A stretch of 50,401 nt of DNA, from contig CANQOY010000008.1 in NCBI GenBank assembly GCA_947625605.1, forward strand, positions 1 to 50,401. Reading direction: 5' to 3'. How positions within the stretch are numbered: the stretch's first letter is position 1; the number at the start of each line of letters is the position of its first letter. The position numbers and the translations under genes were made by a program. The notes below the pieces were generated by a model. The model saw only the letters and a program-made list of their open reading frames with translations, ran no database searches and was not told the origin of the DNA. The stretch is from an uncultured Clostridia bacterium (GTDB lineage Bacteria; Bacillota; Clostridia; Christensenellales; Borkfalkiaceae). Shown piece by piece: positions 13,463 to 42,440 of this stretch.

Positions 13463-14290
13463 TTAGTTGATCCGCTTCAAGATGAACTTGCTCGTCGGAT
13501 TCTTCTTCTTTCTCGTCTTATAGCCGAGAGCGGGCTTGCCCCAAGGAGTCTCGGGCCCCGCATGGCCGACGGGAGATTTGCCTTCGCCGCCGCCGTGAGG
13601 GTGATCGTTGGGGTTCATGACCGAACCGCGCACGGTGGGACGGGTGCCGAGGTGCCTCGTCTTGCCCGCCTTCCCGATGCGGATGATCTCGTGCTCGACG
13701 TTGCCGACCTGCCCGATCGTCGCCCTGCACACCACGGGAATGAGCCTCATTTCCCCGGAGGGCATCCGGATGGTGGCGTAGCTGCCCTCGCGCGCCATGA
13801 TCTGCGCGGAGATGCCGGCGCTTCTGGCCACCTGACCGCCCTTGCCCGGCTTCATCTCGATGTTGTGGATCATCGTGCCGACGGGGATCTCGGAGAGAGG
13901 CAGCGCGTTGCCGACCTTGATGTCGCTGCCCGTGCCGCTCGTCACCTTGTCGCCGACGTTGAGGCCGACGGGAGCGAGGATATAGCGCTTTTCGCCGTCC
14001 GCATAGGCGAGGAGGGCGATGTTCGCGCTGCGGTTGGGGTCGTATTGGATGGACTTCACCGTTGCGGGAATGCCGTCTTTATCGCGCTTGAAGTCGATGA
14101 TGCGGTACTTGCGCTTGTTGCCGCCGCCGATGTGGCGCACGGTGATGCGGCCCGCATTGTTTCTGCCGCCCGACTTGCGCTGGTCTTCGAGAAGGGCGCG
14201 CTCGGGCTTTGCCTTGGAAATGTCTCCGTACTGCGGGACCGTCATCAGACGGCGCGCGGCGGAAGTCGGTTTATATCTCTTGACTGCCAT
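13463..14290 (-). CDS. rplB: 50S ribosomal protein L2
   Basis: L2 is needed for subunit association and peptidyl-transferase activity. The 275-residue protein begins [18 protein letters not shown] and has the conserved C-terminal region [18 protein letters not shown] with its functionally important His. Length is normal and the position in the S10 cluster is standard. Confidence 0.98.
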
Positions 14291-17577: not shown

Positions 17578-18579
17578 TTACTTGTTCATGCCTTCCTGTA
17601 CGGCCACGGCCACCGCGACCGTCGCGCCGACCATGGGGTTGTTGCCCATGCCGATGAGGCCCATCATCTCGACGTGCGCGGGCACGGAAGAGGAGCCCGC
17701 GAACTGCGCGTCCGAGTGCATGCGGCCCATGGTATCCGTCATGCCGTAGCTCGAAGGACCCGCCGCCATGTTGTCGGGGTGGAGCGTCCTGCCCGTGCCG
17801 CCGCCGGAGGCAACGGAGAAGTACTTCACGCCGTTCTCCACGCACCACTTCTTGTACGTCCCCGCGACGGGGTGCTGGAAGCGCGTGGGATTGGTGGAGT
17901 TGCCCGTGATGGACACGCCCACCTTTTCGAGCTTCATGATGGCCACGCCCTCGGGAACGTTGTCCGCGCCGTAGCAGTTGACCTTCGCGCGGGGCCCGTC
18001 CGAGTACGCGATGCGGTTCGTCACCTTCACCGTCTCGGTGTACGGGTCGAACTCCGTCTCGCAGAACGTGAACCCGTTGATGCGGGAAATGATCATGGCC
18101 GCGTCCTTGCCGAGCCCGTTGAGGATGACGCGCAAGGGATTCTTGCGGACCTTGTTGGCGTTCATGGCAATGGAGATCGCCCCCTCCGCCGCGGCGAAGG
18201 ACTCATGCCCCGCGAGGAAGCAGAAGCACTCCGTATCCTCGGAGAGGAGCATCATGCCGAGATTCCCGTGCCCGCGGCCGACCTGCCTGTTCTCGGCAAC
18301 CGAACCGGGGATGCAGAACGATTGGAGACCGATCCCGATCGCCTCCGCAGCGTCCGCCGCGCGGGTGCAGCCCTTCTTGATGGCGATCGCCGCGCCCACG
18401 GTGTATGCCCAAACGGCATTCTCGAAGCAGATGGGCTGGGTGCCGCGCACGATCTTGTCGCAGTCCACGCCCTTGGCGAGGCAGATGTCCCTGCACTCCT
18501 CCACGGAGCCGATGCCGTATTCTTTCAATGTCGCATTGATCTTGTCGATCCTTCTTTCATAACCTTCAAACAGTGCCAT
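17578..18579 (-). CDS. GGGtGRT protein
   Basis: This 333-residue protein matches the family named after its GGGtGRT motif, present here as GGGTGRT at residues 259-265. The family is widespread in anaerobic Bacillota and has no settled biochemical function. It is typically adjacent to a NifU-like scaffold gene, as here (12 nt apart). Other features are many Gly-rich segments and a dozen cysteines, including DICLAKGVDC near residue 35. A role in iron-sulfur metabolism is inferred from the pairing. Confidence 0.8.
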   Translation of the reverse strand: MALFEGYERRIDKINATLKEYGIGSVEECRDICLAKGVDCDKIVRGTQPICFENAVWAYTVGAAIAIKKGCTRAADAAEAIGIGLQSFCIPGSVAENRQVGRGHGNLGMMLLSEDTECFCFLAGHESFAAAEGAISIAMNANKVRKNPLRVILNGLGKDAAMIISRINGFTFCETEFDPYTETVKVTNRIAYSDGPRAKVNCYGADNVPEGVAIMKLEKVGVSITGNSTNPTRFQHPVAGTYKKWCVENGVKYFSVASGGGTGRTLHPDNMAAGPSSYGMTDTMGRMHSDAQFAGSSSVPAHVEMMGLIGMGNNPMVGATVAVAVAVQEGMNK

Positions 18580-18591
18580 TTCGCGCCTCCT

Positions 18592-19293
18592 TTATTCCTT
18601 GCGGGGGTCGATGTACTTCACCGCGCCCTGTTCTTCGCCGAATCTGCCGTAGCGGCCCGTCGCCTTCTCCCACGCCTCGTTGGGGGTAAGCCCCTTCTTG
18701 ACGAAGTCCGTCATTTTACCGAGAGAGACAAATTCATAGCCGATGACCTGATTGTCCTTGTCGAGCGCAAGACGGGTGACATAGCCCTCCGCCATTTCGA
18801 GATAGCGCACGCCCTTAGCCGCAGTCCCGTACATGGTACCCACCTGCGACCTCAAACCCTTGCCGAGATCTTCAAGCCCCGCGCCGATGACGAGCCCGTC
18901 GTCCGAGAATGCGGACTGCGTTCTGCCGTACACGATCTGCAAGAAGAGCTCGCGCATCGCGGTGTTGATCGCGTCGCATACGAGGTCGGTATTGAGCGCT
19001 TCGAGAATGGTCTTGTGGGGCAGGATCTCCGCCGCCATGGCAGCGGAATGCGTCATGCCCGAGCAGCCGATCGTCTCGATGAGCGCCTCCTGGATGACGC
19101 CGCCCTTGACGTTGAGCGTGAGCTTGCAGGCGCCCTGCTGCGGCGCGCACCAGCCAATGCCGTGCGTAAAGCCGTTGATGTCCGTGATCTGCTTCGCGCA
19201 TACCCACTTGCCCTCTTCGGGGATGGGCGCGGGGTCGTGCTTCGGCCCCTTTGCCACGCAGATCATGTTTTCCACTTCGCGTGAATATTGCAT
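18592..19293 (-). CDS. NifU/IscU-like iron-sulfur cluster assembly scaffold protein
   Basis: The 233-residue protein resembles IscU/NifU N-terminal scaffolds. The IGCSGMTHSAAMAAE stretch near residues 75-90 and the Cys in NTDLVCDAIN at 106 correspond to scaffold cysteines, and further cysteines at 49 and 56 sit upstream. It is longer than classical IscU, with an extra C-terminal region ending in the GRYGRFGEEQGAVKYIDP segment. It is first in a two-gene operon with the GGGtGRT gene and has its own promoter and a palindromic leader. Confidence 0.75.
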   Translation of the reverse strand: MQYSREVENMICVAKGPKHDPAPIPEEGKWVCAKQITDINGFTHGIGWCAPQQGACKLTLNVKGGVIQEALIETIGCSGMTHSAAMAAEILPHKTILEALNTDLVCDAINTAMRELFLQIVYGRTQSAFSDDGLVIGAGLEDLGKGLRSQVGTMYGTAAKGVRYLEMAEGYVTRLALDKDNQVIGYEFVSLGKMTDFVKKGLTPNEAWEKATGRYGRFGEEQGAVKYIDPRKE

Positions 19294-19386: not shown

Positions 19387-20079
19387 TTATGATAGATCTG
19401 CCGTTGTTTCATCCAGCGCTCTCAAAAGTACGCTGAACTCGCGATAATTTTCGGGGAACTTATTTTGCCCGCGATATTCGATCGCGTCCTCGCCCTTCTT
19501 TTGAATGGAGACGTGATAGCACATCCCGTCCAAAATCCTATGATCGACCATCTCATGCTCCCACGATGAGACGATTTCTTTCAGCCGCCGTACGAAATTG
19601 GGAATATCCATCGAGAGGAGAGAATAGGAAACGCCGTTTTCCGAGTTCACGCGCTTGTACGCGATATCTTTTCCGTAGTCGATAAAGACCCTTATCCCAT
19701 AGCCGAACGCGGCATATTCTCCAAGTGAAACAGTCATATCCTCCCGCTTCTGCGGAGCATCGGCCAAAATCCGATCGATCTCCTCCTGCGAACACTTCCG
19801 CGCGGGAGCGCTGACCTGAAAACGGCTTTTCTCCCCGCCGCCATTGCGCCCGAACATTTGGTCCATCAGCTCCCTCAAAATTTGGGCGCGTGCCGCATCC
19901 TCCCGTTTCGTCCCGTCGACCGGATACCCCAAATCTTTCATCTGTTGATAAACATTTTGGGCACGGAAAAACGAAATGCAGCACTTCTGCATAATGCTCG
20001 CGATGGTTATTTCTCCCTTTCCCTTGAAAATTTCCACAGCTTGATCCAATACGGGATCGCGCTCTTCCCCTTCCGCCAC
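19387..20079 (-). CDS. Protein with FtsK-gamma-like winged-helix domain and unknown C-terminal domain
   Basis: I chose the GTG at 20079 (230 residues), which follows GGGAGG by 7 nt and lies 25 nt after a strong promoter. An upstream in-frame TTG lies within that promoter's -35 and cannot be used. Residues about 8-52 (DPVLDQAVEIFKGKGEITIA then a helix pair ending MKDLGYPVDG) resemble the gamma winged helix that guides FtsK translocases on DNA, but no motor domain is present. The C-terminal half (from about residue 110) is unrecognised and ends with a YRGQNKFPENY motif. A DNA-binding regulator is the simplest inference. Confidence 0.6.
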   Translation of the reverse strand: MAEGEERDPVLDQAVEIFKGKGEITIASIMQKCCISFFRAQNVYQQMKDLGYPVDGTKREDAARAQILRELMDQMFGRNGGGEKSRFQVSAPARKCSQEEIDRILADAPQKREDMTVSLGEYAAFGYGIRVFIDYGKDIAYKRVNSENGVSYSLLSMDIPNFVRRLKEIVSSWEHEMVDHRILDGMCYHVSIQKKGEDAIEYRGQNKFPENYREFSVLLRALDETTADLS

Positions 20080-20110
20080 TTCTGTTCCTCCCGATTTGCA
20101 TGGTAATGGT

Positions 20111-20139
20111 ATTATAGCATGGGTTTGTCTTTCTTGCAA
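20111..20139 (-). promoter_or_regulatory. Promoter of the FtsK-gamma-like gene
   Basis: TTGCAA and a perfect TATAAT are 17 bp apart on the minus strand, with TGC directly before the -10 (extended -10). The predicted start near 20104 places the GGGAGG-GTG start correctly downstream. The stretch from 20140 to the terminator at 20282 shows no gene. Confidence 0.8.
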
Positions 20140-20281: not shown

Positions 20282-20328
20282 AATAACCTCTCCGCCCGCG
20301 GCATAGCGCCGCGGGCGGAGAGGTTATT
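20282..20328 (-). terminator. Strong terminator of the agmatine deiminase operon
   Basis: A perfect 21-bp stem (arms 20282-20302 and 20308-20328) with a 5-base loop starts 4 nt after the stop of the last operon gene. On the minus strand it is followed by a T-rich TTATTTTATACTA stretch. The GC-rich core makes it the strongest terminator-like hairpin in the window. Confidence 0.85.
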
Positions 20329-20332
20329 CATC

Positions 20333-21862
20333 TTATTTCGAAGCCTTTCTTCTCATACGTTTGCGTTTCCTGCGGAGACGGTCTGTCTCCACGAGTTCGT
20401 CCTTGACCTCGTCTTTCAGATCGAGAGACATTAAATGGATCTCCCGCGCCTGGATGAAAACATCGACCGCGACGGTGATCACGGGCAAGAGGATCGCGAC
20501 GACGGCGGCCAGCACTTCCACCGAGAAAAAACTCACCGCATGCCCGGAGATCTTCTCGATGATCCCCCAATACGAATTGAGAAGCGCTGCGACCGAGACC
20601 ACCGTGCCGAAAACGGAGACAAATACGCCGATGCGCGCTTTCCTGCGGGCACGGAGCTTTTCTTCGCGCGCCTTGATGCGGACGACATAACTGTCGCAGA
20701 TCTCCCTCACCGCCTGCAAATCGTTGGAGAAGCTGTCGTAGATCGCCTTGATCTGAAAGGTGCGGTAGAGCAGGTTGAAATAATCGTTGACGTGTTCGAT
20801 CCCCGAAGGCATCAGAAAGAACGCACGAAATTTGAGATTTGCGGCCGCCGCACGGTAAGCGTTGGCCTTTTTCAGCTGTTGTTTCATCACGCCGTAATCG
20901 AGCGCAAGTTTATCCAGCGTGCCCATTTCGCCGATAAACTTCAACAGGGCATGGCGTTGGTGCAGGATGTGCAGAAAGAGAGAGAAATACGTCGCATGCA
21001 GTTTGGGCGGAAAGCTATCGCGGAAAAACGAATCCGTTGTCTCCTCCCCCGTAAGCCAACTGACGTTGACCGCGCCGTTGAAGGATGCCGCCCAATAAGA
21101 GTTTTCAAACTGTTGACGGACGTAGGGATCCGGCTTACCCTCCGCGGGGCGGGGAAATCGGTACGATTCCTTATAATTTTTGCGTGCGTGGAACAAAAAA
21201 TCCTCGAAATCCTGCGGCTTCCGGTCGAGCAAGAGATAAGAATATATGATCCCCTTTTCTTCCTTATACGCAGGCGGCCCGTCGTGCTTCATGTCTCTGA
21301 CGCCCTCGACGTATCCGAGGACGGCATGGATGAGTTCCAGCATGGAAAATCGATACGGTTCGTCCTGTTTTTGCTTGATGGTATCGTTCCAGATTTGACG
21401 CTTCCCTTCGAAACGGTTCGCCTCCGATTTCATTTCACAGAGGAAATAATTGCAGTTGATATAGTCCTCCGCCGAATCGCTCTTGTATCTGCATTCTACG
21501 TCGACAAAGCCCACGCCCGATTCGAAGAGATAGAGTTTGATCCCCTCGATCGCAACGCCGTACTCTTTCCCCTCTCTGCTGAGAAAGACAAGCGGATCGG
21601 AGAGCCGACGCGGGAGCCCGAAGTGTGCGCGGGCATTGTTGGAGAGACGGAAGCAATCTGCGATTTTTGCGGATCCGCCGTCTTCGGAAAGAAGATCGGA
21701 GATGCCTTGGCGCAGTTCACGGCTCTCTTGGCTGAACCGTTCGAAGAGCTTGACTGATGCGCCCTTTGCCGAGGTGAACGCCGCATCCCCGGGATCCGAT
21801 CCGATTTGATAGCGGAACGGAAAAACAAAGTCGGTAAATTGATAGATGATCTTTTCTTCCAT
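20333..21862 (-). CDS. Membrane protein with two C-terminal helices, CorA-like in layout
   Basis: The 509-residue protein has a large soluble N-terminal part, a long helical region (about 300-405, rich in Lys/Arg/Ala), two membrane helices at about 410-432 and 445-470 joined by a short loop, and a very basic C-terminal tail ending RKRKRMRRKASK. This plan resembles CorA-type channels and the CorA-like effectors of some defence systems. The Gly-Met-Asn filter motif of true CorA is missing, so magnesium transport is not supported. Last gene of the six-gene operon, 3 nt after the SpeD-like gene with no clear ribosome-binding site, so translation is probably coupled. Confidence 0.5.
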   Translation of the reverse strand: MEEKIIYQFTDFVFPFRYQIGSDPGDAAFTSAKGASVKLFERFSQESRELRQGISDLLSEDGGSAKIADCFRLSNNARAHFGLPRRLSDPLVFLSREGKEYGVAIEGIKLYLFESGVGFVDVECRYKSDSAEDYINCNYFLCEMKSEANRFEGKRQIWNDTIKQKQDEPYRFSMLELIHAVLGYVEGVRDMKHDGPPAYKEEKGIIYSYLLLDRKPQDFEDFLFHARKNYKESYRFPRPAEGKPDPYVRQQFENSYWAASFNGAVNVSWLTGEETTDSFFRDSFPPKLHATYFSLFLHILHQRHALLKFIGEMGTLDKLALDYGVMKQQLKKANAYRAAAANLKFRAFFLMPSGIEHVNDYFNLLYRTFQIKAIYDSFSNDLQAVREICDSYVVRIKAREEKLRARRKARIGVFVSVFGTVVSVAALLNSYWGIIEKISGHAVSFFSVEVLAAVVAILLPVITVAVDVFIQAREIHLMSLDLKDEVKDELVETDRLRRKRKRMRRKASK

Positions 21863-21865
21863 ACG

Positions 21866-22669
21866 TTACAAGATATTTTTCTGCCATTTATTATAGCGGT
21901 CAACGATCTCTTCGCGTTGCGCGACTTTGCTGGCATGCTTACTGCCGCGGCCGATGAGGACGCACTCGCAGGGGACGCCCAGCTCCTGCTCCACGCGGCG
22001 GGGCAGATCGTCGCAATCGATGAAACTGCACGAAAAGACGTCGATGTAAGCGAGTTTGGTTTCGATGTTATAGTGAAGCGCCAGATGGCTCTGCGCAATC
22101 ACGTTGATGCCCGAAATGATCGTAAAGTTCTCGATCTTATCCGTGGCGACAATGGGGCGCAGAATGGAATCCATGTGGATCTTTGCAGGGAGAGTATCGA
22201 GAAAACGGTAGATCTTCCCGATATCCAGCTCGCACGGTTCCAACGTCTTGATGAGATAATGCGGCCCAAAGTCGGCGTTCTCGTCGATGGACTCCATCTT
22301 GTTGAGCTGCTCCTGGATGTCGAAACGTCTGTCGACGGTATGGATCCTACGGAGCTCGAAGGGAAGCTCGCGGGACAAAGTTTCGAGGAGCTTGTCCTCC
22401 TTGACAAATCCGTCATACAGCAGATCGACGAAATAACACTCGCGCTCGGGGAATGTGTGGATGGTAAAATGCCCCCCTTTCAAGAACACAAAGGCGCTGA
22501 TTCCGTCGTCCTCCTTGACACTCCCGTAGTAATAAGGGACAAGAATGGGCGGCATGACCGTTTTCACGCCGAGCTCGTTGGTCACTTTGTAAATGGTCTC
22601 GTAAACTGCCCGCAGATCGTCCAGCCTCTCTGTATCCGATCCGTAGACATCCAACATGACATGAAGCAT
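21866..22669 (-). CDS. Tandem-duplicated S-adenosylmethionine decarboxylase-like (SpeD-fold) protein
   Basis: This 267-residue protein contains two SpeD-like halves. SpeD enzymes cleave themselves at a Ser to make a pyruvoyl group and decarboxylate SAM for spermidine synthesis. The C half (about 150-267) keeps the catalytic pattern: Ser194-His195, His199 and Cys214 with the correct spacing (S-x4-H-x14-C). The N half (about 1-110) has GGHFTIHTFPE, with Gly66 where Ser should be and Asp86 where Cys should be, so it should not process. AAGGAGG lies 7 nt before the ATG. No spermidine synthase gene is nearby; the product may feed polyamine synthesis or serve another role. Confidence 0.7.
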   Translation of the reverse strand: MLHVMLDVYGSDTERLDDLRAVYETIYKVTNELGVKTVMPPILVPYYYGSVKEDDGISAFVFLKGGHFTIHTFPERECYFVDLLYDGFVKEDKLLETLSRELPFELRRIHTVDRRFDIQEQLNKMESIDENADFGPHYLIKTLEPCELDIGKIYRFLDTLPAKIHMDSILRPIVATDKIENFTIISGINVIAQSHLALHYNIETKLAYIDVFSCSFIDCDDLPRRVEQELGVPCECVLIGRGSKHASKVAQREEIVDRYNKWQKNIL

Positions 22670-22681
22670 CCGAGATCCTCC

Positions 22682-24892
22682 TTAGGGATTGGTATTTTCG
22701 TTTTCCGATTCGCTGCCGCTGACAATCTCGTCGTATTTCCGGCAACTGATGAGGAAAGGCTCGATCCACCAGCGGCTGTTGGACGTGGAGACATTGGGAA
22801 TGCAGTAGTATTTTTCGTTGATCTCGTATTCCCGTTCGGAGAGGATCTTGATCTCGCGCTCCCCCGTATCTTCCGCATAGAACACCGAGAAGCTGTTGAT
22901 ATCGTAGCCGTCCCTGTTCTCGCTGCGTTCCGTGTAGCGGACGACATAGGGATAAATGGGATCGTATGAGATCTGTTGGCCGAGCAACATCTCGCGTTGG
23001 TAGTCCTCGTTGTAGATCAAGAAGTACATGAGTTTCTTTACATTGAGGAGGAACCGGTTGAACACGGCCGCCTTGAAGCCGGAATTCTGTTGTCTGGAAT
23101 GCTTGGTGCCGTTGATGAAACTGACGATCGTCGGCGGCTTCTTCTTGCTTACGTCGAGCTCTTCCTCATCATAGTCGCGGAGGTTCAGGATCTCGTTAAA
23201 TGTTTTCAAAGAGCAAAAATACAGGCGCCCGATGGCCGCTTTCAGGAGCCTGCCTTCGGAAGAGATGACCGTCTTGTGCCCCTTGGTCTGCGTAAGCGAT
23301 TTGGCGAACGCACGGAACTCCTCAATGAGCGGGCCTATCGCGAGGCGGGAGATCGCATGGCTCTTCTCGCGCGCCGCCGCATAGAACTGCTCCTCGCACT
23401 TTTCGTAGATCGTCTGCTTATCGAACTCCGCTTCCCCATTCTGGATACTGCGGATATCGATATTGGCGAGCGCCCGCTCCTTGTATCCCTCATAGGCGAT
23501 GATGCCGTAGTAGAACGGGATAATGTAGCGGAACGTCTTTTCCAACGCCTTGTTGATCTTGATGACCTTGCTCTCCATCGACTCGTTGGACATGATGACC
23601 TTATCGATGCTGCGGATGCGCATGGGAAGGCTCTCGACGAACTGCGTGTTGGAATGCTTCTTGTTGTTTTCGAGCTCGGCAAGGCCGTCGATGATGCACT
23701 TTGCCATGAGCGTTTTGTTGATGGAAATGATATTCTTGACGATGGAAGAGTTGTCGTCGAGATATTTGCGCAAGAGTTCCATCTGCTCGGTCTGCGCCGC
23801 CTCGTACGCCAGCTTGATCTTTCTTACGAAACCCGCCTCATTGTAACGGATTTCGAGGTTTTTCAGGATCAGCTCGAAATAAAATCCGTCCGAATCGAGA
23901 ATGAACTCCAAAAGCTCGGAAGGTCCCTCCTCGAACATGAGGATGGTGAGCACATTGTCCCAGTTGACCTCTTCGAAAGAGCGGTAACCGAGCTGGTCGA
24001 ATACCTCGCTGTGCAGACGGGAATAGTGCTCATAGAATTTTTGCTTGGTCGCCTTGGTGATGGTATCGGACACCGCAAGAGAAAGATTCTTGATATACTT
24101 GAATCCGATGGAGAAGAGCGATTTCGCAAAAATCGACTTCGGGATATTTTCGTTATTGGTTATGTAGGATTTTTTTTTGAACTCGCGGAGAGGCATCTCC
24201 TTTCTCATCACTTCGCTGCCGTCGAGAAGATAGTACGCCAGCTTGGCGTTGTTGTTCTCCGTAGCCTCGTAAGAGCCGAGATAGTAGAAGTTGTTTTCCT
24301 CATCCACCATGAAGAGCCCGTAGCCGGGGATGAGTTCCCCCGTGGGCAGGAAGCGGAACATGAGTTCCTCCCCTCCCTGCACGACTTCCACATTGCGGAG
24401 AACGTCGAGCGCTTCATACAGCCCAACGAAATAGTTCAGAAGTTTTGCATTGTCCTTTTCCGCAAACTTTGCGCTGTGAAGCCACGTTTTGATGACCCCG
24501 CGGAGAATGGGGATTTGGAGCGCATTCTCCCTGTTGCTGCAAATCCCGTAGAAGTAAGACTTTCTGTCGTAATTCAGGACGTCGAGCTGGATCTCCGTCA
24601 TGATATAGATGATGAGGTCGAGCCCTACGTCCTCCCCGTTGAAAATGCAGTCGTAGGAATCAAAGACGCGCTTGGCATTGGGCAACTCCGTTCTGATGCC
24701 GTCTGTCTGCATGTCGTGTTTGTATTTTGCATAGGAAAAGATAAACCCGAACGTGAGCATCCGGTATAACACGTCGATGCCTTTGATATCGTCACCTTCA
24801 AGGCAGTCGCTCCTGAAAAGGATCCTCTTCAAGTTGGCGTCCTTGATCTCACGGTCTACTCTCCCCGCGACTTCGGAAAATTTCATTGCCAT
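22682..24892 (-). CDS. Unknown 736-residue protein encoded next to the ParA-like ATPase
   Basis: I do not recognise this protein. I chose the ATG at 24892, 1 nt after the ATPase stop and 6 nt after GGAG; the open frame continues upstream only inside the ATPase gene. It is predicted to be mostly helical and soluble, with many charged residues, no signal peptide and no clear membrane segment. The C-terminal part includes ISYDPIYPYVVRYTERSE and an acidic end (SGSESENENTNP). The near overlap with the ATPase gene suggests that the two products are made in fixed ratio and may interact. Confidence 0.75.
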   Translation of the reverse strand: MAMKFSEVAGRVDREIKDANLKRILFRSDCLEGDDIKGIDVLYRMLTFGFIFSYAKYKHDMQTDGIRTELPNAKRVFDSYDCIFNGEDVGLDLIIYIMTEIQLDVLNYDRKSYFYGICSNRENALQIPILRGVIKTWLHSAKFAEKDNAKLLNYFVGLYEALDVLRNVEVVQGGEELMFRFLPTGELIPGYGLFMVDEENNFYYLGSYEATENNNAKLAYYLLDGSEVMRKEMPLREFKKKSYITNNENIPKSIFAKSLFSIGFKYIKNLSLAVSDTITKATKQKFYEHYSRLHSEVFDQLGYRSFEEVNWDNVLTILMFEEGPSELLEFILDSDGFYFELILKNLEIRYNEAGFVRKIKLAYEAAQTEQMELLRKYLDDNSSIVKNIISINKTLMAKCIIDGLAELENNKKHSNTQFVESLPMRIRSIDKVIMSNESMESKVIKINKALEKTFRYIIPFYYGIIAYEGYKERALANIDIRSIQNGEAEFDKQTIYEKCEEQFYAAAREKSHAISRLAIGPLIEEFRAFAKSLTQTKGHKTVISSEGRLLKAAIGRLYFCSLKTFNEILNLRDYDEEELDVSKKKPPTIVSFINGTKHSRQQNSGFKAAVFNRFLLNVKKLMYFLIYNEDYQREMLLGQQISYDPIYPYVVRYTERSENRDGYDINSFSVFYAEDTGEREIKILSEREYEINEKYYCIPNVSTSNSRWWIEPFLISCRKYDEIVSGSESENENTNP

Positions 24893-24893
24893 A

Positions 24894-25796
24894 TCAGTCT
24901 CCGAGGCTTGCGATGAGTTCCGCAAGTTTGCGGTAGCGTTCGCATGCCTTCTTTTCATCCTCTATGAGTTCTTGTTCCTGCGCGATCTTATAGAGCACGC
25001 CCTCTTTCCACATGAACCGCTGCACTTCGTTGATGCCGAACATCTCCTCGGAGATAAAATCCGTATAGACGGAGAGCCCGCGGGCCAACAATTTTTCGGT
25101 GCGTTTCAGGATATTGGAGATGGCGTTCTTCTTTTGGTACTCGCCGTCGATGATGACATCCCGCTCGGGTACGACGGTGGGCAGCAAAATGAGATTGTTT
25201 TCCGCGTTGTTGTTGGCAAGACGATTCAGATAGTTGAACGTACCGAGGCGGAACTGCATCGTGGGGCGCATGCAACAGACGATCTCTGTCGAACATGCCG
25301 TTGCGAGAACGGCGGAATATTGGTCGCCGGCGGCACTGTCGATGACAAAGCCGGGAAGATTGTTCTTGCGGCAGAAGAGTTTGAGCTTTTTGAGCGCGAC
25401 CTCCTTGGTGCCGTCCATCTGGTTGTTGTCGATGGGCATTTCGTCGTTGTCGCCGAGAAACAGCACGGCGCCCTTTTCCACGCCCAACAGATCGCCGACG
25501 GGCAGGAAATGCCTCAAAAGCGCATGGCCTGCAAGGTCGTTCGTCGGATTTTCCGACCACTTCTCTTCGCCCAAGAGAAATTGCTTTACATCGTAATTGC
25601 TCTGGAACCAGCTGTCGCAGCCGAGCAGATACGTCATGCCCGCGCTGTCGAGATCCATGTCAAGGAGCAGAAGAGGGCGTTTTTCGGAAGCGCCGAGCGT
25701 CTTGACAAGAAAAGGAAGGGTGTTCAGGGTCGTCGAACTTCTGCCCGCGCCGCCCTTATAGGAATAAAATGTGATCACTTTCGTCGGAATAGCCAT
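24894..25796 (-). CDS. ParA/MinD-superfamily ATPase
   Basis: The 300-residue protein has the deviant Walker A motif KGGAGRSST at residues 14-22 (preceded by ITFYSY), a DMDLD segment at 46-50 and a Walker B-like VIDSAAG at 151-157. ATPases of this group dimerise on ATP binding and position proteins or DNA. There is no partner ParB gene and no parS-like site in view, so chromosome or plasmid partitioning is not supported. It sits between two large unknown genes in the six-gene operon, suggesting an ATP-driven switch or scaffold role. Confidence 0.8.
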   Translation of the reverse strand: MAIPTKVITFYSYKGGAGRSSTTLNTLPFLVKTLGASEKRPLLLLDMDLDSAGMTYLLGCDSWFQSNYDVKQFLLGEEKWSENPTNDLAGHALLRHFLPVGDLLGVEKGAVLFLGDNDEMPIDNNQMDGTKEVALKKLKLFCRKNNLPGFVIDSAAGDQYSAVLATACSTEIVCCMRPTMQFRLGTFNYLNRLANNNAENNLILLPTVVPERDVIIDGEYQKKNAISNILKRTEKLLARGLSVYTDFISEEMFGINEVQRFMWKEGVLYKIAQEQELIEDEKKACERYRKLAELIASLGD

Positions 25797-25819
25797 TTCG
25801 TTGCCTCTTTTTCTCCTGT

Positions 25820-27868
25820 TTATTTCTCTTCGTGCCCGAAGACGAGATCGGAAAGCCGCTTGGGCACGCGCTGGTTGGAATTGTCTGCAATAAATTCAAA
25901 ATAATTTTTGATGAAGTCCGCAATATCTTCGGCGATCTTGCCCTCGAACTTCGGGAGTTTGATCTCGCGGTCATCGGCGATGGCCGTCATCTTTGCGGCA
26001 AATTTGCTGCGGATATAGGCGTCCACGGCGTCTGAGAGCGCACGGTCAAACTCGCCGGTCGCTCCGCCCGCCGCAATACGTTCCAGCCCGCCGATGAGAT
26101 AGTTCCTCATCATCTCTTCCGATTTCGCCGCGAGGATCTCCCCGATCTTCTTTTCGATCTGGGGCTCGATGATGTACTCGCCGCGGATGCTCCCCTCGAT
26201 CTCGGCGCGGATGGCCCGCCTGTCCTCTTCCCGGCGGATGGCTTCCGCTTCGGCGCGCCGTTTCAGCTCTTCTTCCATGCGCTTCTCATACTGCTTATCG
26301 TACTGCTTTTTGAGCTTGGCGCGTTCTTCCTCGCGGACAGTCTTGTTGTCGAACCGCTTGGCGGCGTAATTCTTCTCGTGCTCGTCGTAATAATCAAAGT
26401 AATCCGCGATGGCTTCGAGATAGCGCTCCGTGGAAAGAAGATCGAACTTGCGGTTTTCCCAAAGCCACTTGCCCTCCATCTTGACGGAGAGCGCCTCGTC
26501 GAAGAGTTCGGTCATCGACTGTTGCGGGAATTTCAGGATCCAGAGTGCAACCAGGTTGTTCGCCTTCACGAGCATGGGAAGGAGGGACGACGCCTGGATG
26601 GATTCCTCGTTGAGCATTTTGGAAAACTCGGGGGTCCTTCTGTTGTGCTGGTTGAAGGAAATGATGTGCTTATCGACGATGCTCTCGTTGCCTTCCGTCT
26701 TGAGGTCGTCGTAGAAATTCTGCACAAGTTGCAGGCCGCGCGTGACCGCATTGACGATCGTCTGGCGCTCCGCCTCGCTCCTCGTCGCCCCCTCTTCGTC
26801 GTAGCGCTTCTCGCGGATATTGGTATAGGAATAGAGCAGGATAAAGATGACGTAAATAGTATTGAACAGAACGGACGAGCGGCTCGTATTGCGGATCTCG
26901 GACGGCGTGACGGGAACGACATTGCCGTCGAACTTATCACTGAAAAAGCTCGTTTTGAGATAATCCTTATAGGCGTTCCACGTCTTGTCTCCGATGCGGT
27001 AGCAAAGGTTGCGGTAACGGATCTCCAAGTGGTCCTCTTCGTTTGAAATGCCTGCGTTGAGATAGTCGAGGAGTTCGTCGTCGCGGTCGATCACGACATT
27101 ATCTTCAAAGTCGGAATATGCCTCGATGACGGAGTAGGTGAAGAAGAGAGAGGGCTCCACGCAGTCGTTCGCATAGCCCCATCCGAATCCGTTTTCATCA
27201 TCTATGACGTTTTCGAGGAAAAACGTGATGATCTGTTTGATCTGGAAGTAGAGCCGTCCTTTGAGCTCGGCAAGTTCGCGGTTGGCCTCGGCAACGCTGC
27301 TCTCCGAAATGAGCTTGCGGAAATCAATGGTCCCTGTACGCATTGCTTTCACCGTAGAAACAAACAATGAAAGCGCCCATGTCATAGCGCCGATGTATTG
27401 GTTTGCTCTGTTCTCGTTGTGGAAAAGATGGGCGTTGGTCTGCTCGTCGATATAGGGGTTGAGATCGTAGCCGTTGTTCTCTACATAGTCGAGAACGTCG
27501 AGAACAGCGCTCTTGATGCTCGTTCTGAGGGCAAACGCTTTCTTGCTGTTGTTGTCGTCGATCGCCGACATGACATTGTAACGGTTGACGAGCGCAAAAA
27601 GCCCCGTTGCGCCGTAGAGCTGGCTCATAAGCCCGACTTCTTTGCTTCTGTCGTTGAGATAGAAGCCCTGATAATCATGCCCGCCCTTATGGTAAACGCC
27701 GTCGCGTTTGGCATTGAGATCTTCGAGGATCTTCAGCCCGAGATAGGAGCGGTCTTTATAGATGCGAAACGTTTCGCCCGAAGCTTCCCCCTCTCCGTTT
27801 TCCGCATCTGTTTCGACGAAACTCTCCTCTTCGAGCAGGTCTTTGAATTCTTCCGCAATTTTTTTCAT
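25820..27868 (-). CDS. Unknown 682-residue protein with coiled-coil region
   Basis: I do not recognise this protein. I chose the ATG at 27868 (MKKIAEEFKDLLEEES), which follows GGGAGA and lies 13 nt after the agmatine deiminase stop. The N-terminal 400 residues contain patterns such as GLMSQLYGATGLFALVNRY (80-97) and GFGWGYANDCVEPSLFF (227-243) that recall helical alpha/alpha-toroid folds, but this is only an impression. Residues about 510-560 form a highly charged coiled coil. No signal peptide is present. It is the second gene of the six-gene operon. Confidence 0.75.
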   Translation of the reverse strand: MKKIAEEFKDLLEEESFVETDAENGEGEASGETFRIYKDRSYLGLKILEDLNAKRDGVYHKGGHDYQGFYLNDRSKEVGLMSQLYGATGLFALVNRYNVMSAIDDNNSKKAFALRTSIKSAVLDVLDYVENNGYDLNPYIDEQTNAHLFHNENRANQYIGAMTWALSLFVSTVKAMRTGTIDFRKLISESSVAEANRELAELKGRLYFQIKQIITFFLENVIDDENGFGWGYANDCVEPSLFFTYSVIEAYSDFEDNVVIDRDDELLDYLNAGISNEEDHLEIRYRNLCYRIGDKTWNAYKDYLKTSFFSDKFDGNVVPVTPSEIRNTSRSSVLFNTIYVIFILLYSYTNIREKRYDEEGATRSEAERQTIVNAVTRGLQLVQNFYDDLKTEGNESIVDKHIISFNQHNRRTPEFSKMLNEESIQASSLLPMLVKANNLVALWILKFPQQSMTELFDEALSVKMEGKWLWENRKFDLLSTERYLEAIADYFDYYDEHEKNYAAKRFDNKTVREEERAKLKKQYDKQYEKRMEEELKRRAEAEAIRREEDRRAIRAEIEGSIRGEYIIEPQIEKKIGEILAAKSEEMMRNYLIGGLERIAAGGATGEFDRALSDAVDAYIRSKFAAKMTAIADDREIKLPKFEGKIAEDIADFIKNYFEFIADNSNQRVPKRLSDLVFGHEEK

Positions 27869-27881
27869 CTTTATCTCCCTG

Positions 27882-28892
27882 TCATAAATTTTTCGTGATG
27901 CAATGCAGTCCGCCGCCGCCGAGAATGATCTCCCGCGCGGCAAACGGAACGACTTCCCTGTCTTTGAAGAAACGTCGGAAGATCTCCAACGCCGCGGCGT
28001 CGCAGGCATCGCCGAATACCGGAACGATCACGCCGCCGTTGACAAACACAAAATTGATATAACTCGCCTGCATGGGTTCGCCCAAAAGGCGGTTCTTGCT
28101 CGCATGGGTCGTTTCGAGATCCTCGCAATCTTCTTCCGTTCTGTAAGAGACGGCAGGCAAGGGAACTTTGATGATGGTGAGCGGATCGCCGTCTGCATCC
28201 CTCGCCGCCCCGAGGACCTCCGCCGCACGGTGCACGGGACCATACTGTACATTCTTTTCGTCGTCCGTCCATGCAAGCATGACCGTTTTCCTCGCGACAA
28301 AGGCGCAGAGGTTATCGACATGCCCACCCGTTTCGTCGTATACGAGCCCTTCATCCAACCAGATGACCTTGCGGGCGCCGAGCGCTCTGCCGAGTTCCGC
28401 CTCGGCTTCCTCCGCACCGATGCCCGGATTGCGGTTCTTGTTGACGATGCAAGGGCGGACGGCGATCAGCGTTCCCGCCCCGTCAGATGTGAGATTTCCG
28501 CCCTCCGCGACGAGCGGGCTCCCGGCAAGCGGGATCCCCGCGATCTCCGCCATTTGAACGGGCACCGTCAGATCGTCCGACCAATCGTTATAGAGCCCTT
28601 CGTCGCCGCCCCATGCGTTGAACCCGAACCGTACTCCGCCGCGCTCCGTGGGGATGACGCCCGTATCGCGCGCCCAGATATCGTTATATCGTGCGGGGAA
28701 AACGTGCACGTTTGCGCCGAAACGCTCCGACATGGGAACGTCCGTGCCCAAAAATACGGGCTCAAAGCGCGAAATGATCTTACAGAGTTCCGCAACGCAT
28801 CTGCGTGCGGGGATCGCCCCTTTGCGCCAGACATCTCGGCGGGACGGATACAGTAGAAATGTACATTTGTGCGTCTGGAAATCTGCTCTCAT
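27882..28892 (-). CDS. aguA: Agmatine deiminase
   Basis: The enzyme converts agmatine to N-carbamoylputrescine and ammonia on the way to putrescine. The 336-residue protein shows the guanidino-modifying fold motifs: NDIWARDTG (70-78), AEGGNLTSDG (129-138), GGHVDN (189-194, with the catalytic His191) and GGGGLHCIT with the nucleophile Cys331 near the end. It is slightly shorter than the usual 360-370 residues. It is first in the operon, about 128 nt downstream of the promoter. The N-carbamoylputrescine amidase gene usually found nearby is absent. Confidence 0.9.
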   Translation of the reverse strand: MRADFQTHKCTFLLYPSRRDVWRKGAIPARRCVAELCKIISRFEPVFLGTDVPMSERFGANVHVFPARYNDIWARDTGVIPTERGGVRFGFNAWGGDEGLYNDWSDDLTVPVQMAEIAGIPLAGSPLVAEGGNLTSDGAGTLIAVRPCIVNKNRNPGIGAEEAEAELGRALGARKVIWLDEGLVYDETGGHVDNLCAFVARKTVMLAWTDDEKNVQYGPVHRAAEVLGAARDADGDPLTIIKVPLPAVSYRTEEDCEDLETTHASKNRLLGEPMQASYINFVFVNGGVIVPVFGDACDAAALEIFRRFFKDREVVPFAAREIILGGGGLHCITKNL

Positions 28893-28958
28893 GGCCTCGC
28901 CGCGGCGCGCTCATCGCGCGCATCTCTTGTTCCATTTCAGGAAACAAATAGAAATTTT

Positions 28959-28996
28959 AGTTTGTTATGGAATAACAAACTGCCCCCATGGGGGCA
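28959..28996. repeat. Hairpin-pair element in the aguA leader (single unit)
   Basis: A 10-bp inverted repeat AGTTTGTTAT-GGA-ATAACAAACT (28959-28981) is followed directly by the palindrome TGCCCCCATGGGGGCA (28981-28996). In the aguA transcript these would form two adjacent hairpins about 65-100 nt before the start codon. Nearly the same unit occurs twice in tandem in the leader of the Hint-domain gene at 42338-42410. Confidence 0.8.
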
Positions 28997-29026
28997 AAAA
29001 TTCCCGAATTATTTGGTTCTATCTAC

Positions 29027-29055
29027 ATTTTAACATATTTTATGAAAAAACACAA
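29027..29055 (-). promoter_or_regulatory. Promoter of the agmatine deiminase operon
   Basis: TTGTGT and TAAAAT are 17 bp apart on the minus strand, and TGT precedes the -10 (extended -10). The predicted start is near 29020, giving a leader of about 128 nt with the hairpin pair. The surrounding sequence strongly resembles the promoter region at 42441-42469. Apart from a terminator at its right end, the gap 29056-29311 holds nothing that I can support. Confidence 0.65.
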
Positions 29056-29221
29056 ATCTTTTCAGGTATTTTCAAGGGATTTGTCAAATTTTCTTTTGCT
29101 TACCAAGGGAAAACGTCCCAAGTCAACCTGTCAAACAAAATTTCGGCCCATAAAAACAGAAACGTGCTTTTCGGCAAAAATGCCATTTGCTTCCATAAAT
29201 CCCACGATCCTTCCCGATCGT

Positions 29222-37017: not shown

Positions 37018-40000
37018 TTAATTCCAACCCTGTGCCTCCCATTCGGAGTGGAAGAATTGGATATTCCAGATGATATCGTACCATGTGACCAAGCCTTTCC
37101 CTACGGCAACCTTGTAGTACTTCCAAGGCCCTGCCTCGAATTCCTCTTCCGTCATGTAATCGGCAAAGTCCTCATAGGTGTAGAGCCCGTACGTCTCGAT
37201 ATCCGCCTGCATCTTTTCCTCGTTGTACTTCAAGCCTTCGCCGTACTCGAAGATATTCGCCGCGCCGTGTACGAACTCCTCGCCGTTGATGACTTCGGTG
37301 AAGCTCAAAAGGCCTTCCGTCACCACATTGAAGAGGCCACTGACCGGAGAATATCTTCTCACGAATTCTTCTTTCACCTCGAAGCCCGTGAGCGTGACCT
37401 CGCCGTTGACGAATTCTCCGCCGACGCTCTGCACCTTGACGAACCTGTGCCCGATATAGTTGGCCGCATTCTCCTCGCCGATGAATACATACTCATTTTC
37501 GTCGAGATCGAAGAAGGCGTGCTCGGTGATGACGCCGATCTTGGTGCCGTCCGAGAAGGTGAGGTAGATGACGCGGCAGTTCATGGCGGGATCCGCCGCA
37601 TGGATATTCACCGCGAGCGGGCTCGCCTCATACTTGCCCGTGAAGTGGTTGAACGCAAGGAGCATATCGCCCTGTGCAAGGTCTTCCACTTTCTTCTGTG
37701 TGCCGTCGGCAAGGGTGACAAGCGTGCCCTCGACAAGGCAGACAATACCGCCTGTGGCCTTATCAAGCGTTCCTCCACACTTAAATTCAACATCTTTCCC
37801 TTCTTCAAGAACGAATTCTCTGGATGCTTTCGTCTGCGATGTAGGAAGGTTGACACGTCCCTCTGCGACGCCGCCTATGGTGACTTCGTACCATACATCC
37901 TTATAACCATCATTTGCCAAGCCACTGTTATCTACGAGTATGTACTCTATCGTAATTGTGACTGACGTACCCTCCATAAAATAGGCGACCATTTTGTCAA
38001 CGGTCTTCGCCTGTGAGGCTTCATCGGTTTTGATCCACGAGAAAGCTTCCCCATTGCTTTTTACACCTTCCGCTGCAATAGAATATATAGACTTACTGTT
38101 TCCCCAATACTCTTTCGCACTGCTGTCTCTTTCGATCGTAACGGCGACCTTGTTTTTACGGTACGCGGTGATTTCGAGCGTATCGCCCTCGTAGTCGGAG
38201 GGAATGAATTCGAGCAGGTTCTCTGTATCTCCATTCATCATCCAACCAACAAAATAGGTTGAAACATTGAGATCGTCGTTGCCGCTTACATAGTTGTCGA
38301 ATTGGATGATGTTGCCGGGCACATAGTAGCCCTCCGCATTGAATTTGGCCACTGTATCCGTAAACGTGGCGCGGATCTTATTCTTGCGGAGCGCCGTGAG
38401 CGAAACTTCCGCGCCGTCTGCCGTTCTCGCGGGGATGGGATAGCCCTCGACATATTCGGTGGAATCGTCTCCTCCGATCACCCATTCCGCAAAGTAGGTA
38501 AGAATTGCGGAATCGTTGTTTCCGTTTTCGTAGCCATCGGGCTTGGCGATGGTGCCCGCCATGTAGTAGCCGTCGAAGCTGTAATCCCCATCCGTAAAGG
38601 TGACGTGCACCTTGGCGTTGCGGGAAGCGGTGAGGGCGATCGTCGTGCCGTTTTCGGCTGTCTCGGGGACCGTGTAGGAACCCGCGGAGAGCGCCTCGTC
38701 CCCCGCCGTCCAGCCGACAAAGTAGGTGAAGACGGTGACGTCGCTGTTCTTGTTGTCGTATCCCACGGGCGAGACGGAGCTGCCCGCCATGTAGTAGCCG
38801 GCGTCGTAGGTGTATTCCACGGCGGCGTCCGCAAAGGTGACATGCACCTTTTGCGCCCAGACCGCGTAGAGGGTCACCGTGACGTCCTCCGAGAGCGACC
38901 CGTAAGCATTTTGGAGCGCCTCGGCGCTGTACGCCGTCCACGCGCCGTCGTGCTCAAAGTACCAGCCGAGGAAGTAGAGCGGCTTTTGGGCGTCGCCGTC
39001 CTGTGCGCGGATGCCGCCGTCGTAGGAAAAGGCGTTGAGCTTGCTCTCGGAGACGGGCACGGGATTGATCTCAATGCCGCTCGAAGAATCGCTCGTCTCG
39101 ACCGCGTTGCCGCTGAGCGTATTATAATTGGTATTGAACTCGAAGTTATAGACGTTGACCTGCTCGAAGAGCCCGTACGCGGTGTGGTCGGTAAGATCCA
39201 ACCCGTCGATGGCGTAGATGCTCTCGGTGCACGCTTCGTCCGCATACCAGCCCGTGAACTTGTAGCCATCCGCATAGGTAAGCCCCTGAGAGGAGAGCAT
39301 AAACGCTTGGTCAGGCGTGACAAATGTCGGGTTGCCGCTCCCGTCCGTCGCCTCTGCCTCGTGCAGTGCGCCGTCCTCGCCGCGATAGTAATATTTGTAG
39401 GTGACGCTGAACTGCGTATCGCCCGCGATCCACTTGGTTCCGTCGTGATAGTAGGACATGCCCGCCGTAAGTTCGCTGCCGCCTGCAAGCGCACCCGTTG
39501 CGGCACGCGTGATCAGATCCCCCTCAAAGGAAACCTCGACTTGAAGCGAAGAGCGGTTGGCCCAAACGTTTCCTGTGCCGCCGATGTAACCGCTCGCGGA
39601 AGTCGTTCCCTCGCGGAGGGTGATCTTTGCGCCGCGCTCGCCCGAAATTTCGCCGCCGAACTTGCCGCCGACTTCGAGAGAGCAGCCCGCTCCCACGGTG
39701 AGCTTTGCGCCCTCGTAGAAGATGATGCCGTCGTCCGCGTTCTCCAAAATGACGTTCGCGCCCTCTTTCAGGGTCAGGGTCGAACCCGAAAGCAGAGTCG
39801 TCGTGCCGGTCGGCCTTCCGACATAGTTGTCAAGCTCGGTCGTTCCCATGAACTCATAGCCGTGCTCCGATTCAAAGGTGCCGTTCTTGACGACGATGTC
39901 GAGGCACGCAGAGACGGGAAGTTTGACCGTCTTGGAGGTCGCCACGAAAGTTGCGAAATAGATTTGCAGGGCGAGGTTGACAACTCCGCCGACCGCGTCG

Positions 40001-42243: not shown

Positions 42244-42337
42244 TGTATTTCCTCTATCTGGCGCTGTGGGATTTTGAGCCGCGGGGCTCATCAACGCCAA
42301 TGTTTCCGGTTTTTGCGAATCAATTAGGAATTTTTTT

Positions 42338-42410
42338 AGTTTGTTATGGAAATAACAAACTGCCCCCGGGGGCAGTTTGTTATGGAAATAACAAACTGCC
42401 CCCGGGGGCA
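42338..42410. repeat. Two tandem 36-bp hairpin-pair units in the leader of the Hint-domain gene
   Basis: Each unit is AGTTTGTTAT-GGAA-ATAACAAACT followed by TGCCCCCGGGGGCA. The two copies (42338-42374 and 42374-42410) are identical. A single variant copy lies in the aguA leader at 28959-28996. Because 36 is a multiple of 3 the unit reads through as codons, but this stretch is upstream of the true start. Confidence 0.85.
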
Positions 42411-42440
42411 AAATTTCCCGCATGATCGGATTTTATCTAT

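Follow-up and report, generated by a model that had tools for sequence, protein, structure and literature searches.

Described systems and overview of the operon

Thoeris consists of ThsA and the TIR protein ThsB, a TIR domain being commonly an immune effector, and ParA partition systems pair an ATPase carrying a canonical KGGxGK P-loop with a ParB partner. In type III CRISPR systems, the associated CorA protein binds SAM-AMP (SAM, S-adenosylmethionine), presumably opens the membrane, and is accompanied by a degrading enzyme (PMC10600005). Nucleoside triphosphate (NTP)-dependent conflict systems contain a conserved core and variable effectors, and MinD/ParA-like domains occur in them (PMC7159879). 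The locus analyzed here is a six-gene operon on the − strand (positions 20333 to 28892) of a 50,401-nucleotide stretch, referred to as the window, that spans positions 1 to 50,401 of contig CANQOY010000008.1 (assembly GCA_947625605.1) from an uncultured Clostridia bacterium. Its six genes represent one variant of a modular operon, which was detected at 31 loci. Comparison of these loci shows that the operon has a conserved core, an effector place filled by CorA or TIR, and an enzyme place filled by one of four enzyme types. The gene set that gut bacteria carry here is apparently undescribed and partly swappable, and it looks like a new immune-type system. An immune-type role, taken by itself, is reasonably probable from the genes present. 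The best explanation of the whole, which we hold to be marginally probable, would be an immune operon of the abortive-infection type that was acquired horizontally, has exchangeable parts, and carries an amine-controlled CorA effector.

The genes and signals of the window operon are as follows.

27882-28892, − strand: AguA-like agmatine deiminase, 336 amino acids (PF04371, 5.7e-94; alignment with 1vkp)
25820-27868, − strand: U682, core protein of 682 amino acids (at 31/31 loci; no Pfam family)
24894-25796, − strand: KGGxGR-type ParA/MinD-like ATPase, 300 amino acids (NF047398, 1.4e-11, under the cutoff)
22682-24892, − strand: U736, core protein of 736 amino acids (27/31 loci by hidden Markov model [HMM]; family fused to TIR in L028, L029, and L073)
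21866-22669, − strand: predicted fused two-domain SpeD-like pyruvoyl decarboxylase, 267 amino acids (PF02675 in two stretches)
20333-21862, − strand: putative CorA-like membrane effector, 509 amino acids (PADLOC CorA profiles; relatives at five other core loci)
20283-20327, − strand: strong intrinsic terminator, 20-pair stem and T tract
29037-29065, − strand: possible sigma-70-type promoter, weak (CTGAAA-17-TAAAAT, 9/12 matches)

The six genes, their place, and their intergenic gaps of 13, 23, 1, 12, and 3 nucleotides agreed with the initial annotation of the window, as did its very strong terminator. The single promoter that it had named was not supported: 6 promoter-like sites were observed compared to 5.8 expected in shuffled sequence, and the candidate at 29065-29037 was not above chance. 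The G+C content of the operon was 53.1%, compared to 58.2 and 59.7% in the flanks. The initial annotation had not recognized the set from any described system, and no published description of it was found among the matches listed, judged by titles and the beginnings of abstracts. The nearest literature contexts found were phage-shock operons that include polyamine genes (PMC11237479) and polyamine enzymes encoded by phages (PMC9992855).

With type III CRISPR loci the operon shares a CorA-like membrane effector and a small-molecule-degrading enzyme (PMC10600005), but its core consists of an ATPase and two unassigned families, no array-like repeats were found in window positions 14000 to 35000, and no PADLOC match, Cas10 included, was found at 1e-8 among 37 scanned window proteins. 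The recognized partner enzymes of CorA also differ, being NrN, DEDD, or SAM-AMP lyase in the CRISPR loci described (PMC10600005) and SpeD-like proteins with AguA or an agmatinase-like protein here. Thoeris and other TIR systems resemble the operon in the TIR domain present at 24 of the 31 loci, but there was no ThsA-like partner among the scanned proteins, the core is U682-ATPase-U736, and CorA replaces TIR at six loci. The six window proteins had no TIR or ThsA match, and one TIR-fusion relative matched ThsB_TIR weakly. The likeness to NTP-dependent conflict systems lies in a conserved core with varying effectors and in MinD/ParA-like domains; in the described systems, however, the core is based on MoxR-vWA or a GTPase and the MinD-like domains are listed among effectors and predicted to be inactive (PMC7159879), whereas the ParA-like protein here belongs to the core. 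ParA partition ATPases are set apart by the P-loop, in which Arg replaces the usual Lys at 31/31 loci (KGGxGR variant).

Conserved core of three genes

The search for ATPase relatives covered genome contigs (three loci from Clostridia metagenome-assembled genomes [MAGs]), 151 genomes of the window's family, and 396 genomes of its taxonomic order. The loci were extracted, their genes called, and the products reannotated with HMMs made from clusters. The resulting 31 core loci comprise the window, L002 to L004, 8 loci from the family search, and 19 from the order search; 28 lie in the window's order and 3 in Clostridia MAGs of unchecked order. Near-copies occur among them (L059, L061, and L062; L056 and L057; L002 and L003), and the counts given below are therefore not counts of independent events.

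The core is made up of U682, the KGGxGR-type ATPase, and U736, in that order wherever all three were seen, with the recognized genes on one strand at 31/31 loci. U682 was split into two frames in L073. U736 was found by HMM at all but four loci, including a split copy in L003 and short copies in L022, L056, and L057. At L028, L029, and L073, the U736 family forms the N-terminal part of a protein and is followed there by a TIR domain; a profile built from the first 585 residues of these three proteins aligned with U736 over 492 columns (hhalign, probability 96.6, E value 5e-10). U736 was not found in L025, where a 200-amino-acid frame at that place had no match. The initial reading of the window as holding a self-contained system gained support from the joint occurrence of the core at the 31 loci, from the 16/16 fused-SpeD genes within 3 kb of a core ATPase, and from the membrane protein, whose type is represented in a defense library and alternates with TIR.

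U682 and U736, which had been annotated as unknowns of 682 and 736 residues, matched no family above the cutoff in Pfam or NCBIfam and had no PADLOC match. AlphaFold2 (AF2) models built from four sequences each were poor, mostly helical for U682 (predicted local distance difference test [pLDDT], 46) and with a pLDDT of 52 for U736, and a Foldseek search of the PDB with them returned nothing at an E value of 0.001. Profile searches of PDB sequences gave no credible match for U682, U736, or the ATPase.

The ParA/MinD-like type first assigned to the ATPase was retained, but the protein has the variant P-loop in place of the usual one. Residues K14, G15, G16, R19, D46, and D48 were invariant in 31 sequences. 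The ATPase resembles NF047398 (AAA_KGGVGR) and the PADLOC candidate PDC-M28B in the P-loop Arg and in weak profile matches; it differs in scoring 45.1 bits against an NF047398 cutoff of 90 and in matching PDC-M28B in the P-loop region (amino acids 5 to 75) only. This was the sole PADLOC match among the five operon proteins besides CorA. When the ATPase profile was searched across the phylum, 43 of 398 genomes matched, the window's own gene at 6e-114 and the next best at 1.2e-9; the mostly P-loop-sized matches beyond the window's own were read as ordinary ParA/MinD kin and set aside.

Effector place: CorA or TIR

The effector place was occupied by CorA at 6 loci (the window, L002, L003, L004, L023, and L058) and by TIR, in four architectures, at 24, and never by both. 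The remaining locus, L060, is cut by the contig end and has no countable effector. The last gene of the window operon had been annotated as a membrane protein; it proved to be of a type held in a defense library and alternating with TIR, and the description was corrected to CorA-like. It matched PADLOC profiles PDLC01043 (6.7e-12, amino acids 245 to 466) and PDLC01175 (3.2e-9), which we take to stem from CRISPR loci, and had no credible match in the profile search of PDB sequences. The PADLOC CorA profiles matched three of the five core-linked CorA proteins tested (L003 being outside the test) and 3/3 other CorA proteins. At L030, L031, and L032, CorA was present with no core in the stretch taken (in L032, on a 4.7-kb contig), and these loci are not among the 31.

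TIR domains were confirmed with Pfam on four representatives (the L056 type under the cutoff) and on three members of alignment A10, and the remaining TIR assignments rest on HMMs built from the clusters of this analysis. The Glu of the V-x-x-E stretch, presumably catalytic and with a role in NADase activity, was aligned in 20 of the 21 sequences shown and shifted by one position in L067. Matches to one TIR model at L004:728-3154, at L066:2987-4276, and in genes flanking the L028 and L071 operons were read as leucine-rich-repeat matches and not as TIR. Beside the GNAT-type systems, L065:5122-6525 and L066:4488-5792 matched the TIR models weakly (1e-7 and 2e-5) and may be second TIR proteins or effectors. 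A 126-amino-acid MGS-like (methylglyoxal synthase) protein is encoded upstream of the TIR gene at L056:15176-15556, with a similar open reading frame in L057.

In one TIR lineage (L059, L061, and L062; e.g., L062:7295-8623), the gene after SpeD encodes a Na+/H+ (CPA2) exchanger, which may be another effector. The exchanger, identified with Pfam on L062 and with an HMM on all three, would also fit a membrane or envelope stress operon in which CorA or the exchanger moves cations, amines stabilize membranes, and the ATPase regulates, with no part in immunity. Envelope-stress operons of the phage-shock-protein type repeatedly include polyamine genes (PMC11237479), and no known defense gene was found among the 37 proteins around the window operon. 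We regard such an operon as rather unlikely, given that TIR, commonly an immune effector, stands in the place of CorA at 24/31 loci and that the operon occurs patchily.

A further CorA-like protein (465 to 483 amino acids) was found with a protein of 1,075 to 1,085 amino acids as a two-gene unit at L146:5755-10421, L147:9060-13728, and L148:9193-13840, in three genomes with no ATPase match. Two of the three larger proteins were scanned; one contained a zinc ribbon, and weak matches to AAA_22, NPHP3_N or NACHT, and TPR were under the cutoffs. The unit may be a system of STAND sensor plus CorA effector, and a similar CorA beside a possibly STAND-like protein would support a general effector role of CorA.

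Enzyme place and agmatine hydrolases

Each of the 31 loci carried exactly one of four types in the enzyme place: fused SpeD (22 loci), GNAT (L063, L065, and L066), radical SAM (L026, L071, and L072), or an Orn/Lys/Arg decarboxylase (L028, L029, and L073), the last being a pyridoxal phosphate (PLP) enzyme in the place of SpeD. The cluster C17 proteins of L028, L029, and L073 had first been put in the SpeD alignment; they are not SpeD, and the alignment was redone without them. A reading of the enzyme-place radical SAM proteins as viperin (weak, 2.8e-9) was set aside for peptide maturase models, which fitted better (7e-25), and a PLP protein beside L023 that matched a decarboxylase model (4e-8) was identified as a LegC-type aminotransferase. 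In another TIR lineage, each of the five loci (L027, L067, L069, L070, and L074) has, after SpeD, a second type of radical SAM protein (MSMEG_0568-like in L070) and a PEP-synthase/PPDK-like protein.

The initial identification of the window enzyme as a duplicated SpeD-like protein was upheld as to family by two AdoMet_dc stretches (PF02675, 2e-23). In 19 aligned sequences, the C-terminal half retained the processing Ser (S194, 19/19), Cys (C214, 19/19), and His (H199, 18/19). In the N-terminal half, Cys is replaced by Asp in 19/19 and Ser by Gly in 18/19 (Ser is kept in L068), and H71 is present in 19/19 rows. The halves presumably act in a complementary way, like those of the human enzyme. 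The residue after HTFP (position 75) was Glu in the aligned SAM decarboxylases and in 2 of the 19 SpeD-like proteins, the window's being one of the two; we take the Glu after His-Thr-x-Pro to be ribose binding in SpeD. Measured against SpeD, the family thus has the pyruvoyl Ser, catalytic His, and Cys, and the ribose-binding Glu is not conserved. The corresponding processing and catalytic residues of the Thermotoga maritima enzyme are S63, H68, and C83 (PMC10407285).

Described SpeD1-SpeD2 fusions, SpeDA, and SpeDC resemble the operon protein in having two fused class 1b SpeD domains and changed substrate-binding positions, and an agmatine hydrolase lies nearby here as it does with some SpeDA genes (PMC10407285). 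Three tested SpeD1-SpeD2 fusions are SAM decarboxylases, one of them without active-site residues in the C-terminal half (PMC10407285); here, in contrast, it is the N-terminal half that has lost Cys and nearly always Ser, the C-terminal half keeps both, and the genome has no SpeE. Some SpeD homologues have turned into decarboxylases of arginine or ornithine, in certain cases in genomes that also encode agmatine hydrolases, and SpeD fusions are likewise described (PMC10407285). From these residues and relatives, the fused protein is probably not a SAM decarboxylase. Decarboxylation of arginine (or ornithine) is its most likely activity, and arginine is the best guess because AguA or agmatinase is encoded alongside and a PLP-dependent Orn/Lys/Arg decarboxylase replaces SpeD in three loci.

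AguA was also identified as annotated. Besides PF04371, the window protein matched agmatine iminohydrolase (1vkp, 1.1e-70) with aligned motifs, and seven of nine members contained all four motifs sought, with three of the motifs present in L056 and in L057. AguA occurs in five CorA loci and in the TIR loci L022, L025, L056, and L057. The sixth CorA locus, L023, has instead an unrelated arginase-family protein that scored best as agmatinase (TIGR01230, 158 bits; cutoff, 174) and is closest in the PDB to agmatine ureohydrolase. Agmatine-type hydrolases were thus found in 6/6 CorA loci, 4/4 loci of one TIR type, and 0/20 other intact loci. As predicted from their families, unrelated enzymes of like chemistry substitute for one another, AguA by the agmatinase-like protein in L023 and SpeD by the Orn/Lys/Arg decarboxylase in L028, L029, and L073.

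These enzymes bear on two further explanations. If the operon were immune but its enzymes acted directly, they would consume arginine or alter a polyamine pool needed by phages, with CorA or TIR as a second line; a decarboxylase and an agmatine hydrolase would drain arginine, and certain phages depend on spermidine and carry genes for polyamine enzymes (PMC9992855). The 20 TIR loci with no agmatine hydrolase argue against direct action, as do the radical SAM and GNAT versions, which would not drain arginine, and we find it distinctly unlikely. A cluster for biosynthesis of a small molecule or peptide, with self-protection or killing and a core that modifies or exports the product, would accommodate the radical SAM proteins (PapB/SPASM-like and MSMEG_0568-like), the PEP-synthase-like protein, and GNAT. 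CorA and TIR, however, are not biosynthetic, and the six window proteins gave no match to an exporter or peptide maturation family, although no search was aimed at precursor peptides; such a cluster is very unlikely.

Distribution and exchange of parts

An ATPase match was found in 9 of 151 genomes of the family and in 26 of 396 genomes of the order, the window's own genome included in both. The core accompanied the ATPase in 24 of the 26; L075 (genome G305) had no U682 or U736, and the match in genome G187 was weak (E value, 7e-4) and its locus was not taken. The fused-SpeD profile matched 16 of the 396 genomes, all among the 26 ATPase-positive ones and all within 3 kb of the ATPase, an overlap with a chance of about 4e-22 if the two were independent, for a profile that was built from members beside the ATPase and so favors finding such members.

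In a tree of the ATPases from the 31 loci, eight formed a clade (support, 97/97) in which five loci have CorA and three have TIR; AguA and SpeD are present in all eight, and the effector therefore differs in an otherwise constant operon. The tree requires at least five effector, at least three enzyme, and at least three hydrolase changes. Three versions occur in genus g1, namely, the CorA version of the window and two TIR versions (L025 and L027).

The occurrence of the operon is patchy. It was absent from the yhbY stretch in nine congeners, taken from 21 others with a yhbY match. In L141, yhbY lies about 700 bp from the next gene common to L141 and the window; the distance in the window is 10 kb.

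The absence of aguB and speE noted in the initial annotation extended to the whole assembly (97% complete): the SpeE model (Spermine_synth) had 0 matches, and the best AguB score was 22 bits against a cutoff of 410. The genome had no AdoMet_dc match beyond the two halves of the operon gene and a single AguA, and PF04371 was found in 3 of 81 genomes of the order, the window's included. With no SpeE, no AguB above the cutoff, and no second SpeD or AguA, the operon is therefore not a housekeeping polyamine pathway. Neither outcome that the initial annotation had named as refuting its reading was observed: the genes were kept together across genomes, and nothing placed them in a housekeeping pathway. 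That ordinary polyamine biosynthesis genes were joined by chance to unassigned genes would agree with AguA and SpeD being polyamine pathway families but is extremely improbable, being contradicted by the same gaps in the genome's polyamine genes, by 31 codirectional loci, and by the 16/16 fused SpeD genes beside an ATPase.

Proposed mechanism

Sensing or use of polyamines, an ATP switch, and a role against phages are possible activities of the operon that we infer from its gene complement. U682 and U736 would form, with the ATPase, a nucleotide-dependent sensor and switch, and U736 would pass the signal to the effector, a role proposed because three loci have TIR fused to the U736 family. The effector of the window operon would be a CorA-like pore that opens the membrane and leads to cell arrest or death. 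The SpeD-like enzyme, with its one intact pyruvoyl site, would decarboxylate arginine or ornithine, and AguA would then hydrolyze agmatine. The arginine-derived amine would determine if CorA is able to open, and AguA (or agmatinase) would serve as the off switch, in the manner of the ligand-degrading enzymes that accompany CorA in type III CRISPR. The amine-ligand step is tentative and rather doubtful. It is unlikely that the operon represents a new class of immune signaling in which an arginine-derived amine, made by a pyruvoyl decarboxylase and removed by an agmatine hydrolase, opens a CorA pore or switches a TIR enzyme under a KGGxGR ATPase that has two undescribed families as partners.

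Conserved gene order, the replacement of one part by another at the same place, and a gene fusion tie polyamine-type enzymes to the putative TIR and CorA effectors. If confirmed, the system would have two core families matched by no Pfam model here and CorA effectors working outside CRISPR, and an amine as immune messenger would become directly testable.

Several observations weigh against an amine-controlled immune operon. With poor AF2 models and no Foldseek match for U682 and U736, their sensing role is a guess. The PADLOC CorA profiles missed L002 and L023, the substrate of SpeD is predicted only, and AguA scored below both agmatine deiminase cutoffs (TIGR03380, 307.6 of 381.8; NF010070, 316 of 483). 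The 20 TIR loci that lack an agmatine hydrolase mean that the agmatine step is not general, and the radical SAM (closest to peptide maturases) and GNAT proteins that fill the enzyme place in three loci each are not plainly associated with amine chemistry; these versions do not fit an agmatine-only model. Enzyme types largely track ATPase clades, and because most types follow these clades, exchange is real but not frequent. No ATPase relatives were found in plasmids, no U736 relatives in phages, and no ATPase-profile matches in viral contigs. The initial annotation had raised clustering near defense or mobile genes as a check. None of the 37 scanned window proteins matched a known defense gene (PADLOC, 1e-8), and the neighbors of the other loci were mostly ordinary looking (Pfam, best 25 of 89 families). 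Among 104 neighbors of 26 other loci, a set that may contain wrong frames and had no control set, 13 PADLOC families with 1 to 4 members each were matched, including mads and Cas9. Pfam TIR_2 and RyR domains were found twice each among the same neighbors.

Genes adjoining the window operon

A 250-amino-acid protein encoded next to the operon (window positions 19387 to 20139) had a weak match to the FtsK-gamma winged helix (0.0018). The yhbY stretches taken from nine congeners lacked it, and it may be part of the same insertion as the operon. The two adjacent genes at positions 17578 to 19293 were 91 to 94% identical in five congeners in which yhbY and obg were 58 to 79% identical, and they were inverted relative to yhbY in L137; from these identities, the pair would be unusually conserved or recently exchanged. 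A very long open frame of about 1,800 amino acids, covered by the PADLOC scan, lies on the − strand at positions 37018 to 42423.

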